64,000 nucleotides of DNA from Indolivaga alginatilytica (GTDB taxonomy: Bacteria > Bacteroidota > Bacteroidia > Bacteroidales > Dysgonomonadaceae): contig NZ_QICL01000017.1 of the NCBI RefSeq assembly GCF_003201355.1, positions 1 to 64,000 on the forward strand, given 5' to 3'. The notes below the pieces were generated by a model that was not told where the DNA came from, searched no databases, and saw nothing but the letters and a program-made list of their open reading frames with translations. Positions within the stretch are counted from its first letter, which is position 1. Each line of letters opens with the position of its first letter. Shown here one piece after another: positions 5,636 to 47,179 of the stretch. Position numbers and translations under genes: made by a program.

Positions 5636-6799
5636 TCAAGGTTGAGGATCGTTACCTATTGTATTAGGATTGAAGCCTCCGCCCATATTCATGTTACTTG
5701 TCATAGCTTGCAGCAAACGAGCATATACTTTGTTAAGTTCGGTAAGTTGCTGAGCCATTTTTTCTGTTTCGTTTTTGAAGATAGAACTATCTACAAGCGA
5801 TCCGCCGTATAATTTCTTGATACGGTCTAAGCCTGCATTGATTTCTTCGATTGTATGAATCTGACCACTTACGCCCTTCAATTGTATTTCGTATATGGTA
5901 TTTAATCCCGAAATATTACGATTGAGAGTTTCCATTTGGGTGACATACCCTTGGGTATTCGTTCCGATACCATCCGAATTATCAATAATAGTTTGGAATG
6001 AACCTAACAGCGACTCGGATATTTTGCCCAATGACTCGGTTACTTGTGCAAACTTAGCCATGTTATCAGACATGTGAGACATTTGATCAACATACTTTGC
6101 AGAAGCTTCTACAACATTGGCTCCATCAAGAACCACAGCTCCACCGGTAACTATTGTACCGCCGGATATTGATCCTCCGCCGCTGCCTGAACCCGCCGGT
6201 GCATATTGATTTCCTCCGGATACGTTTGAAGAAGTTCCCGAAGAAGCAGTACCTCCACCACCTATTATAGTTGTGCCACCGCCTGCGTTTCCTCCTCCAT
6301 TGTTATTATTTCGGCCACTATTTCCACCACCACTGTTACCGCTTTGAGGTATATTGTTGTTGCCGGTGTTATTAGTATTACCAGTATTACCAGAGCTTGC
6401 AACATTATTTCTGCCACTACCGCCAGTAGAGCCGGCATTACCTCCTTGTTGTGAAGGAGTAGAGGTTTGCTGTATAGCAGGTCCACTTTGTTGTTGTATT
6501 TGTGCTCTTTCGGCTCTTGGGACAAAACCCTCTTCATCTACCAAAGCAGGATACACTTCTTCCCATTTATACTCTTTAGCAGGTTTTTCGAATGCTGACA
6601 ATAAGAATACAATAGCCTCGGTTATCATACCGATCATAAGCATCTGATTACCGAAAGGAAGGTGAAGAATCTTGAACATCGCACCTAGAATAACGATAGC
6701 AGCACCTACACTATAAACGACATTGAAGAAGCGTTTACCGTTGTTACTGTCCAGATATTTTTCAAGAAAGTTTTTATATCGTCTGTACTTTTTACCCAT
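5636..6799 (-). CDS. gldL: type IX secretion/gliding motor protein GldL/PorL
   Basis: 387 residues from the ATG at 6799; an in-frame TTG seven codons upstream is less likely. GldL is the inner-membrane stator-like partner of GldM and conducts protons. Two transmembrane helices occupy about residues 26-42 and 53-69; the second contains the acidic residue of MITEAIVFLLSAF (near 61), matching the functionally important glutamate of the family. The N-terminal GKRFFNVVYSVGAA and HLPFGNQM are conserved. Residues ~98-223 are a Gly/Asn/Ser-rich low-complexity linker, making the protein longer than most relatives I know, followed by a helical C-terminal region. Its 3' spacer lacks the palindrome seen after the other core genes. 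Confidence 0.93.
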   Translation of the reverse strand: MGKKYRRYKNFLEKYLDSNNGKRFFNVVYSVGAAIVILGAMFKILHLPFGNQMLMIGMITEAIVFLLSAFEKPAKEYKWEEVYPALVDEEGFVPRAERAQIQQQSGPAIQQTSTPSQQGGNAGSTGGSGRNNVASSGNTGNTNNTGNNNIPQSGNSGGGNSGRNNNNGGGNAGGGTTIIGGGGTASSGTSSNVSGGNQYAPAGSGSGGGSISGGTIVTGGAVVLDGANVVEASAKYVDQMSHMSDNMAKFAQVTESLGKISESLLGSFQTIIDNSDGIGTNTQGYVTQMETLNRNISGLNTIYEIQLKGVSGQIHTIEEINAGLDRIKKLYGGSLVDSSIFKNETEKMAQQLTELNKVYARLLQAMTSNMNMGGGFNPNTIGNDPQP

Positions 6800-44700: not shown

Positions 44701-44916
44701 GTAGGAGGGTGTGTCAAAAGTCTGAACAGAACACAAATTACACTGAAATAAAAGAAAATACAGATTTTAATTAAACGCAAAGTCGCCAAGACGCCAAGAT
44801 TTTTATCCCTCTCCTTCTTTACTCCCTCTCAGTAGGAGAGGGGGTGAGGTGAAATACGAAAATCTGTAATATCGGTGCATTCTGTGTGCTCGATCTCTTT
44901 TGACACACCCTCCTAC
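44701..44916. mobile_element. MITE-like element, copy 2
   Basis: 216 bp with a perfect 20-base terminal inverted repeat: GTAGGAGGGTGTGTCAAAAG at 44701-44720 and its exact complement at 44897-44916. Interior features match copy 1 in reverse (CCCTCTCAGTAGGAGAGGG, ACGCAAAG, AAATCTGTAA). No reading frame of note. The two copies bound a 1.9 kb interval carrying only the ABC transporter pair. Confidence 0.85.
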
Positions 44917-44933
44917 GGTATACTATAATTAGT

Positions 44934-45391: not shown

Positions 45392-45601
45392 ATGAAATTT
45401 AAAACATTATTAATCTCATTATCCATTATAGGTTTTTTATCATTTTTACTCACTTCATGCTCTAAAGAAGACGAAATGGGAGTAGGTGGTACAACAGGGG
45501 AGAACACACCTGACGGGCATGCATCATCAAAAGTACTCGATTCAGTACCATTCCCTAAAGATGATACCGTTACTAACTCTAACTTTTCAAATAAACAATA
45601 A
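45392..45601 (+). CDS. small lipoprotein A of tandem pair
   Basis: 69 residues. The signal peptide (MKFKTLLISLSII...) ends in lipobox LLTSC with Cys at 23. The mature part is 47 residues, starting CSKEDEMG and carrying the region PDGHASSKVLDSVPFPKDD near its C-terminus. It is highly similar to the next gene at both DNA and protein level, with the signal peptide and the PDGHASSKVLDS block nearly invariant and the linker variable. Relative ease of translation is suggested by AGCTAAGCT before the ATG. Exported and probably membrane anchored; not recognised from any family I can name. Confidence 0.8.
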   Translation: MKFKTLLISLSIIGFLSFLLTSCSKEDEMGVGGTTGENTPDGHASSKVLDSVPFPKDDTVTNSNFSNKQ

Positions 45602-45640
45602 AATATTTACTTCAAGTAATTTTTCAAAATATACTAGGCT

Positions 45641-45844
45641 ATGAAAATTAAAACATTATTAATCTCACTATCCATTATAAGCTGTTTATCATTTTTACTC
45701 ACTTCCTGTTCAAAAGAAGATGAGATGGGAATTGGTGTTACAGCAGGAGAGGGACCTGACGGACATGCATCATCAAAGGTCCTTGATTCAATACCATTTC
45801 CTGGAAATGATAACGTTACAGGCTCTAATTTTCCGAAAGACTAA
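45641..45844 (+). CDS. small lipoprotein B of tandem pair
   Basis: 67 residues, a paralogue of the gene ending at 45601, 39 bases apart. Lipobox LLTSC (Cys about residue 23), mature start CSKEDEMG, conserved block PDGHASSKVLDSIPFPGND and end SNFPKD. Compared with A, the variable stretch between GVTAGEG and the block is two residues shorter. The duplication looks recent: synonymous differences are few. Thirty-three bases separate it from the TPR gene, so all three are probably one operon. Confidence 0.8.
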   Translation: MKIKTLLISLSIISCLSFLLTSCSKEDEMGIGVTAGEGPDGHASSKVLDSIPFPGNDNVTGSNFPKD

Positions 45845-45877
45845 CACGTATTTGAGTTACAAACAAACATTACTACA

Positions 45878-47179
45878 ATGAAAATCTCAACACATATTTT
45901 ACTATTGTTGCTTTTATGTTTATTTATTTCTTGTAAAAAAGAGAATGCTTCGGTCAATTTATTAAGACAAGCACAGAATATAGTTGAAAATAAACCGAAC
46001 GAAGCTTTAGTATTACTTGATTCTATCCAAAACACCGAAAATCTGGATGCGGACAGCTACATGCAATATATAGTAACAAAAGTAGATGCAAAATATAAAA
46101 CAAAACAAGAAATATCAGGCGACACATTGATATTTGAAGCACAAAAATATTTTGATGGTAGCAAGAATGTGGAACAAGCCGCATTGGCTGATTATTACGC
46201 AGGAATTGTAAACCGTAAAATAAACAGGTATGATAAATCACTCATTAGTTTCTTAAAAGCAGGAGTCAACTCAGCCAAAACAGGAAACAATAGGTTGAGC
46301 GGTAAAATATTCGAAAACATAGGTTTTATTTATTTAGAACAAGGTGCTTTAGATAGTGCAGTTTTAAATTATAAAAAAGCAGTAAATTATTACATTTTAG
46401 AAAAAGATTCTGCTTCAACAATGAGGACAACCAATCAAGTAGGACGTTGCTATGAGGATTTAGTTAAGCTTGATAGTGCCTATGTTTATTTCAGTAATGC
46501 GTTACAAATAGCTGAGAATATAAATGATGAGAAATATAAAAGTAATATCACTCTAAATCTGGGCGTAATTCGTTTCGGTATGAGTGAATATGACAAAGCT
46601 ATTGCATATTTCGAGTCGGTCTTAAGTCTGGAAGCTACTACGCAAGAGCGAGTAAGACAAACAAATATTATGCTTCTTAATGCGTTTTCCTTGAAAAATG
46701 ACCTTAGTTCAGCAAAAGAGTTTGCACTTAAAGTAGAAGCAAGTATACCCGATGTAACAGATATGCATACAAAGGAAGAAATGTATGCCGCCCTAACCAA
46801 TTACTATAAACAGACAGGCAATTACAAACAGGCGTTACATTTTAATGAATTGGAAAAAGAAACCATTCAACAGATTGCCAAAGAAGAACGCCCTGTGGAA
46901 TTGATAAAAGCTGACACTGATTTTCGTGTAGAGCAAAAAGACAGAATTTATGGAGAATTACAATCCGACTTTTATCTTTTCTTGCTACTTTCAATAGCTG
47001 CTGCTATATTGATCTCGGTATTTGTTGTAATCAATTACCGTCAAAATAAGAAAGATAAAGAGATTTTCAGGAGCGAATCGGAAAAATACGATTTAATGAG
47101 ACGGCATTTGGAAGCATCTAACAGAGATTATGACCGCATCCAAGCCGAAATTAAAGATATACTGGAAGGTAATCAATAA
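45878..47179 (+). CDS. membrane-anchored TPR protein
   Basis: 433 residues. An N-terminal lipobox-like segment (LLLLCLFISCKKEN) is followed by TPR-like helical repeats from about residue 40 to 345, visible as KIFENIGFIYLEQGALDSAVL, QVGRCYEDLVKLDSAYVYFSNAL and NLGVIRFGMSEYDKAIAYFES. One transmembrane helix (about 365-387, LFLLLSIAAAILISVFVV) leads to a 46-residue charged coiled-coil tail without a DNA-binding domain. The repeats should therefore be outside the inner membrane. It is the last gene of the set with the twin lipoproteins. A sensing or scaffold role for a periplasmic ligand is an inference. Confidence 0.75.
   Translation: MKISTHILLLLLLCLFISCKKENASVNLLRQAQNIVENKPNEALVLLDSIQNTENLDADSYMQYIVTKVDAKYKTKQEISGDTLIFEAQKYFDGSKNVEQAALADYYAGIVNRKINRYDKSLISFLKAGVNSAKTGNNRLSGKIFENIGFIYLEQGALDSAVLNYKKAVNYYILEKDSASTMRTTNQVGRCYEDLVKLDSAYVYFSNALQIAENINDEKYKSNITLNLGVIRFGMSEYDKAIAYFESVLSLEATTQERVRQTNIMLLNAFSLKNDLSSAKEFALKVEASIPDVTDMHTKEEMYAALTNYYKQTGNYKQALHFNELEKETIQQIAKEERPVELIKADTDFRVEQKDRIYGELQSDFYLFLLLSIAAAILISVFVVINYRQNKKDKEIFRSESEKYDLMRRHLEASNRDYDRIQAEIKDILEGNQ

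Follow-up and report, generated by a model that had tools for sequence, protein, structure and literature searches.

How might two very small lipoproteins be connected with the receptor-like gene that follows them? We addressed this question for a locus of Indolivaga alginatilytica, in a stretch of 64,000 nucleotides (contig NZ_QICL01000017.1, positions 1 to 64,000; hereafter the window). Three open reading frames (ORFs) lie in a row on the + strand at 45392-47179: two lipoproteins of 69 and 67 aa, then a 433-aa lipobox-bearing protein with tetratricopeptide repeats (TPR) and one transmembrane (TM) helix. The second lipoprotein ORF ends at 45844 and the TPR ORF starts at 45878, with 33 bases between them. 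The original prediction described tandem twin lipoproteins with a CSKEDEMG start and a common block, followed at this distance by the TPR gene, and the ORFs and sequences bear it out. It went further, proposing a ligand-receptor unit with the C-terminal block as the ligand or epitope. We give about an even chance to a modified reading, in which the genes specify a sensor together with a partner private to it, and the N-terminal head of the lipoprotein is presented to the cognate periplasmic TPR sensor.

A lipoprotein-TPR unit recurs across genomes

Both window lipoproteins (45392..45601 and 45641..45844, + strand) match their relatives by profile and are predicted to be lipidated at Cys23, which in the first follows a signal peptide at residues 1-22. 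Each begins CSKEDEMG after processing and carries the common block PDGHASSKVLDS(V/I)PFP. In lipoprotein 1, the conserved acidic and Gly-rich mature start, CSKEDEMGVGGTTGENTPDG, lies at 45458..45517 and the C-terminal block, PDGHASSKVLDSVPFP, at 45509..45556 (+). In lipoprotein 2, the mature start as aligned is CSKEDEMGIGVTAGEGPDG (45707..45763, +) and the block, from comparison of the twins, is PDGHASSKVLDSIPFP (45755..45802, +). Five of the six base differences between the two C-terminal blocks are synonymous (P 0.006 under random changes), and the ratio of nonsynonymous to synonymous substitution rates (dN/dS; NG86 method) of the twins is 0.25. Thus the twins look like selected coding genes rather than a chance repeat, in line with the original suggestion of selection. 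Across 12 lipoprotein pairs dN/dS ranged from 0.14 to 0.64, with the highest values (0.50-0.64) in the twin pairs of loci C21 and C39 and of genome G005; two TPR-gene pairs gave 0.19 and 0.21, and a third was not computable.

The window genome (G000) holds 11 lipoproteins of the same kind (E ≤ 1e-6) and eight receptor relatives (E ≤ 1e-20), namely six TPR-TM proteins, one TM-less protein (379 aa) and one cut down to 144 aa. Lipoproteins stand in tandem at four of its loci (window, C1:307 kb, C21 and C39) and at a fifth in G005. Recurring adjacency, on which the ligand-receptor proposal leaned, was found throughout: 101 genomes of the bacterial family yielded 21 lipoprotein matches, spread over 4 genomes, and each has a receptor gene on its own strand no more than 350 bp away. 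The lipoprotein gene is upstream in 20 of them, and the one "downstream" case has a TM-less copy on one side and the following TPR-TM gene on the other.

At the same E-value thresholds, both genes are present in three of the six genomes of the genus (G000, G003 and G005) and neither in the other three; at E ≤ 0.001, G001 and G004 yield just weak matches in longer frames (169-607 aa). "Genus" here means group g1; genes known from Dysgonomonas loci are present in the neighbouring group g3 as well. Elsewhere in the family the lipoprotein form occurs in G019 alone (two genes). An order-wide search of 295 genomes found it in G000 and G005 only, two long ORFs (G116, G122) being read as unrelated. 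Four of nine named relative loci, the nearest, come from Dysgonomonas, and one, L071, shares genes with G003.

Receptor and partner distances covary over 13 loci (Mantel r 0.73 for whole and 0.61 for mature proteins, reached in 0 of 5000 permutations; C20, the hybrid locus G003:C5, G005:195641, G019:C54:199667 and two TM-less copies were omitted). Across the genomes compared, the lipoprotein-TPR pair has been inherited and duplicated as a unit, and the twins are probably private partners of the TPR protein.

TM-less lipobox TPR copies lie directly before a lipoprotein-TPR-TM unit in two species (L021:2222-3361 and L071:2434-3570; 379 and 378 aa, ending Y.RY.EELF). They could possibly serve as soluble decoys or co-receptors. 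Upstream of its receptor, by about 540 bp, the G005 tandem locus has a third small lipoprotein-like ORF (L056:745-927, CGKGETGSG...).

The mature N-terminus is the conserved part of the partner

The part of the lipoprotein that is conserved family-wide is the mature N-terminus. The start C..[DE]..M..G is found in 21 of 21 aligned lipoproteins, and the 20 displayed have 3 to 7 Gly within residues +2 to +20. Outside the window, the PDGHASSK... block is common, in part, to only one sister locus, C1:307079/307330. This rules the C-terminal block out as a family epitope, and with it that element of the original proposal.

In one paralogue the head peptide is repeated. The lipoprotein of the G000:C4 locus (L025:3528-3839) holds GLGNTGGSGDPK close behind the lipidated Cys and again far inside the protein. 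All seven base differences between the copies are synonymous (chance P ~1e-4). Thus, in this one protein, selection seems to act on the acidic, Gly-rich peptide and, since the second copy is internal, not solely on an export signal next to the lipid. The receptor of the C4 unit, at 553 aa, retains a helix-turn-helix (HTH)-like end. By alignment and codon comparison, the acidic/Gly-rich head is conserved and, in this paralogue, repeated, apparently under selection as a peptide.

The C4 and C20 copies of the unit sit among phage tail genes (PHROGs comparison), and the single relative found in a search of viral contigs is the C4 locus of the window genome itself, inside IMG/VR contig L154. At C20 (L026:44-5882), the lipoprotein and the TPR gene reduced to 144 aa stand amid tape measure and tail protein genes, with a phrog_10156 gene immediately upstream; by eye, the C39 copy has a fragment like it on its upstream side (L024:3913-4113). 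Beside the C4 unit, L025:31-1620 had no PHROGs match; we take it to resemble a tube protein of the TssD/Hcp type of the type VI secretion system, with a longer C-terminal part. A plasmid search gave distant TPR matches in 15 records, all with coverage under 80%.

These locations raise the question of whether the unit is a toxin/immunity, defence or phage-linked moron cassette. The C4 and C20 contexts and the IMG/VR contig would suit one, as would the related gene pair of B. thetaiotaomicron, which heads a putative operon with MACPF proteins in the passages of PMC2954219. We nevertheless regard such a cassette as highly improbable: Pfam and NCBIfam scans found no toxin-like domain in the lipoproteins or the TPR protein, PADLOC yields generic TPR matches only, and we recognised no phage gene next to the window copy.

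A multi-copy epitope, together with tandem twin precursors at five loci and between-locus variation that covaries with the receptor, could also mark a cell-to-cell signal. The lipoprotein head would then be released or displayed and read by the TPR sensors of neighbouring cells, as a periplasmic counterpart of the RRNPPA pheromones. Units among phage tail genes and a receptor fold like that of Rap and NprR fit this idea, and some RRNPPA systems likewise have several pheromones on one propeptide or multiple similar propeptides (PMC9765709). However, the unit as read includes no protease or exporter gene, the partners bear a lipobox or a whole immunoglobulin (Ig)-like domain, and release or passage through the outer membrane has no support, so that we think a signal between cells decidedly unlikely. 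A pheromone derived from the signal peptide, of the Enterococcus type, was set aside because the signal peptides of non-lipidated partners differ.

The TPR protein resembles a membrane-anchored receptor

The third gene (45878..47179, +) encodes the receptor-like protein. Its predicted lipobox, TPR domain and single C-terminal membrane helix were all recovered: the lipobox (S18-Cys19) is invariant across seven aligned paralogues of its own genome, the TPR part has Pfam matches, and a single-protein model (mean predicted local distance difference test, pLDDT, 90.4) shows a helical solenoid at residues 24-336 and, after it, a single unbroken helix at 339-432. The solenoid corresponds to 45947..46885 (+). 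Within the long helix, the membrane-spanning part was positioned by eye from the sequence at about residues 363-385 (46964..47032, +). Given the signal peptide, and given that basic residues follow the membrane helix, we infer that the TPR part lies outside the inner membrane, in the periplasm, and the tail in the cytoplasm.

That tail (residues 387-433; 47036..47176, +) has a basic start and a conserved I.AEI...L motif, and in longer relatives it extends into an HTH-like domain. Over 15 HTH-less rows its entropy was 1.41, compared to 2.01 for the membrane helix and 1.09-1.67 for solenoid segments; it is thus more conserved than the membrane helix and about equal to the solenoid. Conservation of the tail suggests that HTH-less receptors still have some output through it.

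In structure, the solenoid is like LGN and the Rap/NprR peptide receptors, with other TPR proteins scoring nearly as high. This likeness and the HTH seen in relatives together speak for a sensor that has the lipoprotein head as its private ligand.

Relatives pair DUF3244 proteins with HTH-ended receptors

The original prediction knew of no matching family, which proved incorrect: the unit is related to NCBIfam BT3442_fam and to Pfam DUF3244/BT3441. Receptors (E ≤ 1e-20) occur in at least 44 of the 101 family genomes and DUF3244 matches (E ≤ 0.01) in 55. At least 68 of 91 receptor matches in the family have an open frame above 500 aa, and those examined end in an HTH-like domain. In the g3 set, the C-terminal domain of the longer relatives aligns with the LuxR-like ends of distant members (hhalign probability 90, E 1.5e-6); one such distant member has a GerE match at E 0.0023, below the cut-off.

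A frequent neighbour of the full-length receptors is a secreted DUF3244 protein of about 120-145 aa. DUF3244 is an Ig-like domain with structures 3d33 and 3sd2. Among the DUF3244 matches listed (n=91), a TPR match to the A1 profile is found no more than 1.5 kb from at least 39 of 65 short ORFs, compared to 0 of 26 long ORFs; these counts are lower bounds because at most 16 TPR candidates per genome were scored. With a wider receptor hidden Markov model, a receptor-like ORF was present in the 1.5-kb flanks of 26 of 28 fetched short-DUF3244 loci, six of them weaker (67-97 bits). On this genomic evidence, DUF3244 proteins adjoin full-length TPR-TM-HTH relatives. Relative to these receptors, the short DUF3244 genes (L081-L089, L109-L137) are upstream in a single lineage; elsewhere they are found downstream or on the opposite strand.

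Other loci broaden the picture. Eleven receptor loci outside the genus (L139-L144, L147-L151) have a DUF3244-like neighbour by eye in six cases (L140, L141, L143, L148, L149, L151); of the remaining five, a different small lipoprotein adjoins the receptor at L139, the loci L142 and L150 are short, lying at the end of a contig, and L144 and L147 have no such neighbour. All five named loci from outside Dysgonomonas have, by eye, a small secreted-looking ORF downstream, clearly DUF3244-like at L076 and L077. At L075, a further ORF (6011-6268) has a signal peptide and head near-identical to those of the L076 and L077 partners, with a different, Cys-containing C-terminus. Over 198 genomes of the order, at least eight match the BT3442 profile at E ≤ 1e-30; as the best six candidates per genome were used, this count does not establish how common the full-length pair is across the order.

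One protein links the two partner types. A single ORF at G003:C5 (L062) joins a lipoprotein head (CEKDEMGIGTTGGGG) to a DUF3244-like end, matching the lipoprotein profile at E 1.4e-13 and DUF3244 at E 6.1e-4 (22.0 bits against a Pfam cut-off of 25, another Ig-like model scoring slightly better). By these profile matches, the partner head occurs together with a DUF3244-like end in at least one protein. Most simply, then, the small lipoproteins would be partners from which the Ig domain was lost or in which it was never retained. A G005 locus, beside a similar and presumably Fur-like gene, has a non-lipidated partner with DDGMGDGG; its receptor and that of the hybrid are not sisters in the tree. 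Neither partner L065 nor the g3 partners are lipidated.

In a receptor tree of 37 rows (without the cut-down C20 copy and matches not fetched), the HTH-less receptors form one clade (support 100/97), with one change of receptor length class and three of partner type. The most simple account is that the HTH was lost once, in the clade of the window, group g1.

Surroundings of the window unit

The upstream neighbours look ordinary in a Pfam scan: an ABC ATPase, an FtsX-like permease (under the Pfam cut-off) and a DUF4836 lipoprotein. Downstream, in the opposite direction, are what we take to be a CorA-like and an RsmA-like gene. Neither window lipoprotein matches any Pfam family at E ≤ 1, and the Ig-like DUF3244 domain (PF11589) is absent from both in the same scan. 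A sigma-70 promoter scan gave 15 sites compared to 14.0 in shuffles, no excess, with one site (44900-44929) matching 12 of 12 positions; the Bacteroides-type promoter pattern had 0 full and 2 loose matches across 11 upstream regions.

A model for the unit

Of the ligand-receptor proposal, adjacency, covariation, a peptide-receptor-like fold and relatives with HTH-like ends speak in favour; its choice of the C-terminal block as epitope did not hold. In the model that we favour, the partner, lipidated in the envelope, would offer its flexible head to the TPR solenoid of the cognate sensor, which would be anchored to the inner membrane by its N-terminal lipid and one membrane helix. Binding of the head, or loss of binding, would shift the long membrane-crossing helix. 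The LuxR-like HTH of full-length relatives would be acted on by this shift, with transcription as the output. In group g1, where the HTH would have been lost, the conserved cytoplasmic tail (about 45 residues) would relay the output to another protein. With tandem twins and multiple receptor copies, one cell would have several partner-sensor channels insulated from each other.

Three observations weigh against a simple version of this model. First, a strict C.K[DE][DE] follows the Cys in 11 of 21 lipoproteins, including both window copies (C-S-K-E-D-E). This resembles the optimal surface-export motif, C-X-K-(D/E)2-X, defined in Capnocytophaga (passages of PMC5080379). In the genus itself the motif is a putative export signal, which would complicate simple inner-membrane sensing. 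Second, the window receptor stops at residue 433, in the helix, without the C-terminal LuxR-like HTH. Third, conservation of the solenoid groove, taken as a sign of ligand binding, showed no excess.

The first observation would be explained if the lipoprotein were a decoy cargo of surface export. When it is exported, the sensor would stay silent; when export stalls, the periplasmic head would bind the TPR sensor. This would reconcile a surface motif with a periplasmic sensor, and the motif is rarer elsewhere: among 30 further lipobox-like ORFs from the genus (120 aa or longer), one has it. This control is coarse: TPR receptors make up 14 of these ORFs and include the sole match, and the set also contains the hybrid partner with a misplaced Cys and a few others that look misplaced. 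NlpE, reporting lipoprotein trafficking to Cpx (PMC6538781), and QseG/QseE (PMC12691602) are possible precedents by analogy. However, ten of 21 heads lack the strict motif, the internal copy of GLGNTGGSGDPK in C4 cannot act as an export signal, and the non-lipidated L065 and g3 partners do not fit. Several other control lipoproteins begin CSNDDD-like, closer to the Bacteroides SDDDD type. Such monitoring of export strikes us as unlikely.

The second observation would suit a TPR protein that is a dedicated, non-signalling holder, escort or scaffold for the lipoprotein, its relatives' HTH having been lost once signalling ended. A whole clade lacks the HTH, TM-less TPR lipoproteins stand beside the pair in two species, and TPR proteins often act as scaffolds. 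Yet the tail beyond the membrane remains conserved, the relatives of the pair include receptors that end in an HTH-like domain, and short, probably unfolded lipoproteins would scarcely need an escort. We therefore hold a scaffold role, too, to be improbable, and retain the sensor with a private partner.

More broadly, and doubtfully, the unit may exemplify peptide-epitope signalling in the Gram-negative envelope: a selected acidic/Gly-rich peptide, displayed on short lipoproteins, would be read by TPR sensors of the periplasm, each private to its partner, as an extracytoplasmic counterpart of RRNPPA. The peptide would occur twice, either within a single precursor or through tandem precursor genes, and the system would be expanded to eight receptor relatives in one genome (six of them TPR-TM) and partly carried among phage genes. 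If a small exported protein does address the TPR sensor, a group of Bacteroidota regulators gains a ligand, of which the genus would offer a minimal form of about 45 mature residues; DUF3244 possibly has a general role as receptor partner. Frequent pairing, covariation and the repeated peptide make the ligand question testable.

Comparison with known systems

The solenoid fold resembles that of the RRNPPA receptors Rap and NprR. These are cytoplasmic and from Firmicutes (PMC9765709), unlike the window receptor, which is predicted to be periplasmic and lipidated, with one membrane helix. Its solenoid is also like that of LGN, which has been solved with bound peptides. FimS of P. gingivalis has a periplasmic sensor region of eight TPRs for which a protein signal has been suggested (PMC5706477), and its profile matches the window receptor at E 2e-7 (29.6 bits; cut-off 600). 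FimS ends in a histidine kinase, an end that the window receptor lacks, and the passages of PMC5706477 name no lipoprotein partner. In NlpE-Cpx (PMC6538781) and QseG-QseE (PMC12691602), a lipoprotein addresses an inner-membrane signalling system, which makes them possible analogues of the unit; QseE is a histidine kinase, unlike the window receptor.

Closest are BT3442 and BT3441. No functional study of this pair or its relatives was found in the literature searched, in the passages available and with preprints and most subscription journals outside its range; BT_3442 and BT_3441 of B. thetaiotaomicron are named as neighbours in a putative operon in passages of PMC2954219. The window receptor matches the BT3442 family (NF053779) over residues 1-412 at E 3e-21 (75.8 bits, not reaching the equivalog cut-off of 940) and has in common with it a TPR domain after a lipobox, and a membrane helix. 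With BT3441/DUF3244 (NF053775, PF11589), the unit shares a small exported protein encoded beside a TPR-TM receptor. It differs in that its receptor lacks the C-terminal HTH and its partners are 67-69-aa lipoproteins without an Ig domain, doubled and upstream. By its profile matches and gene order, the unit is a variant of the uncharacterised BT3441/BT3442 pair.
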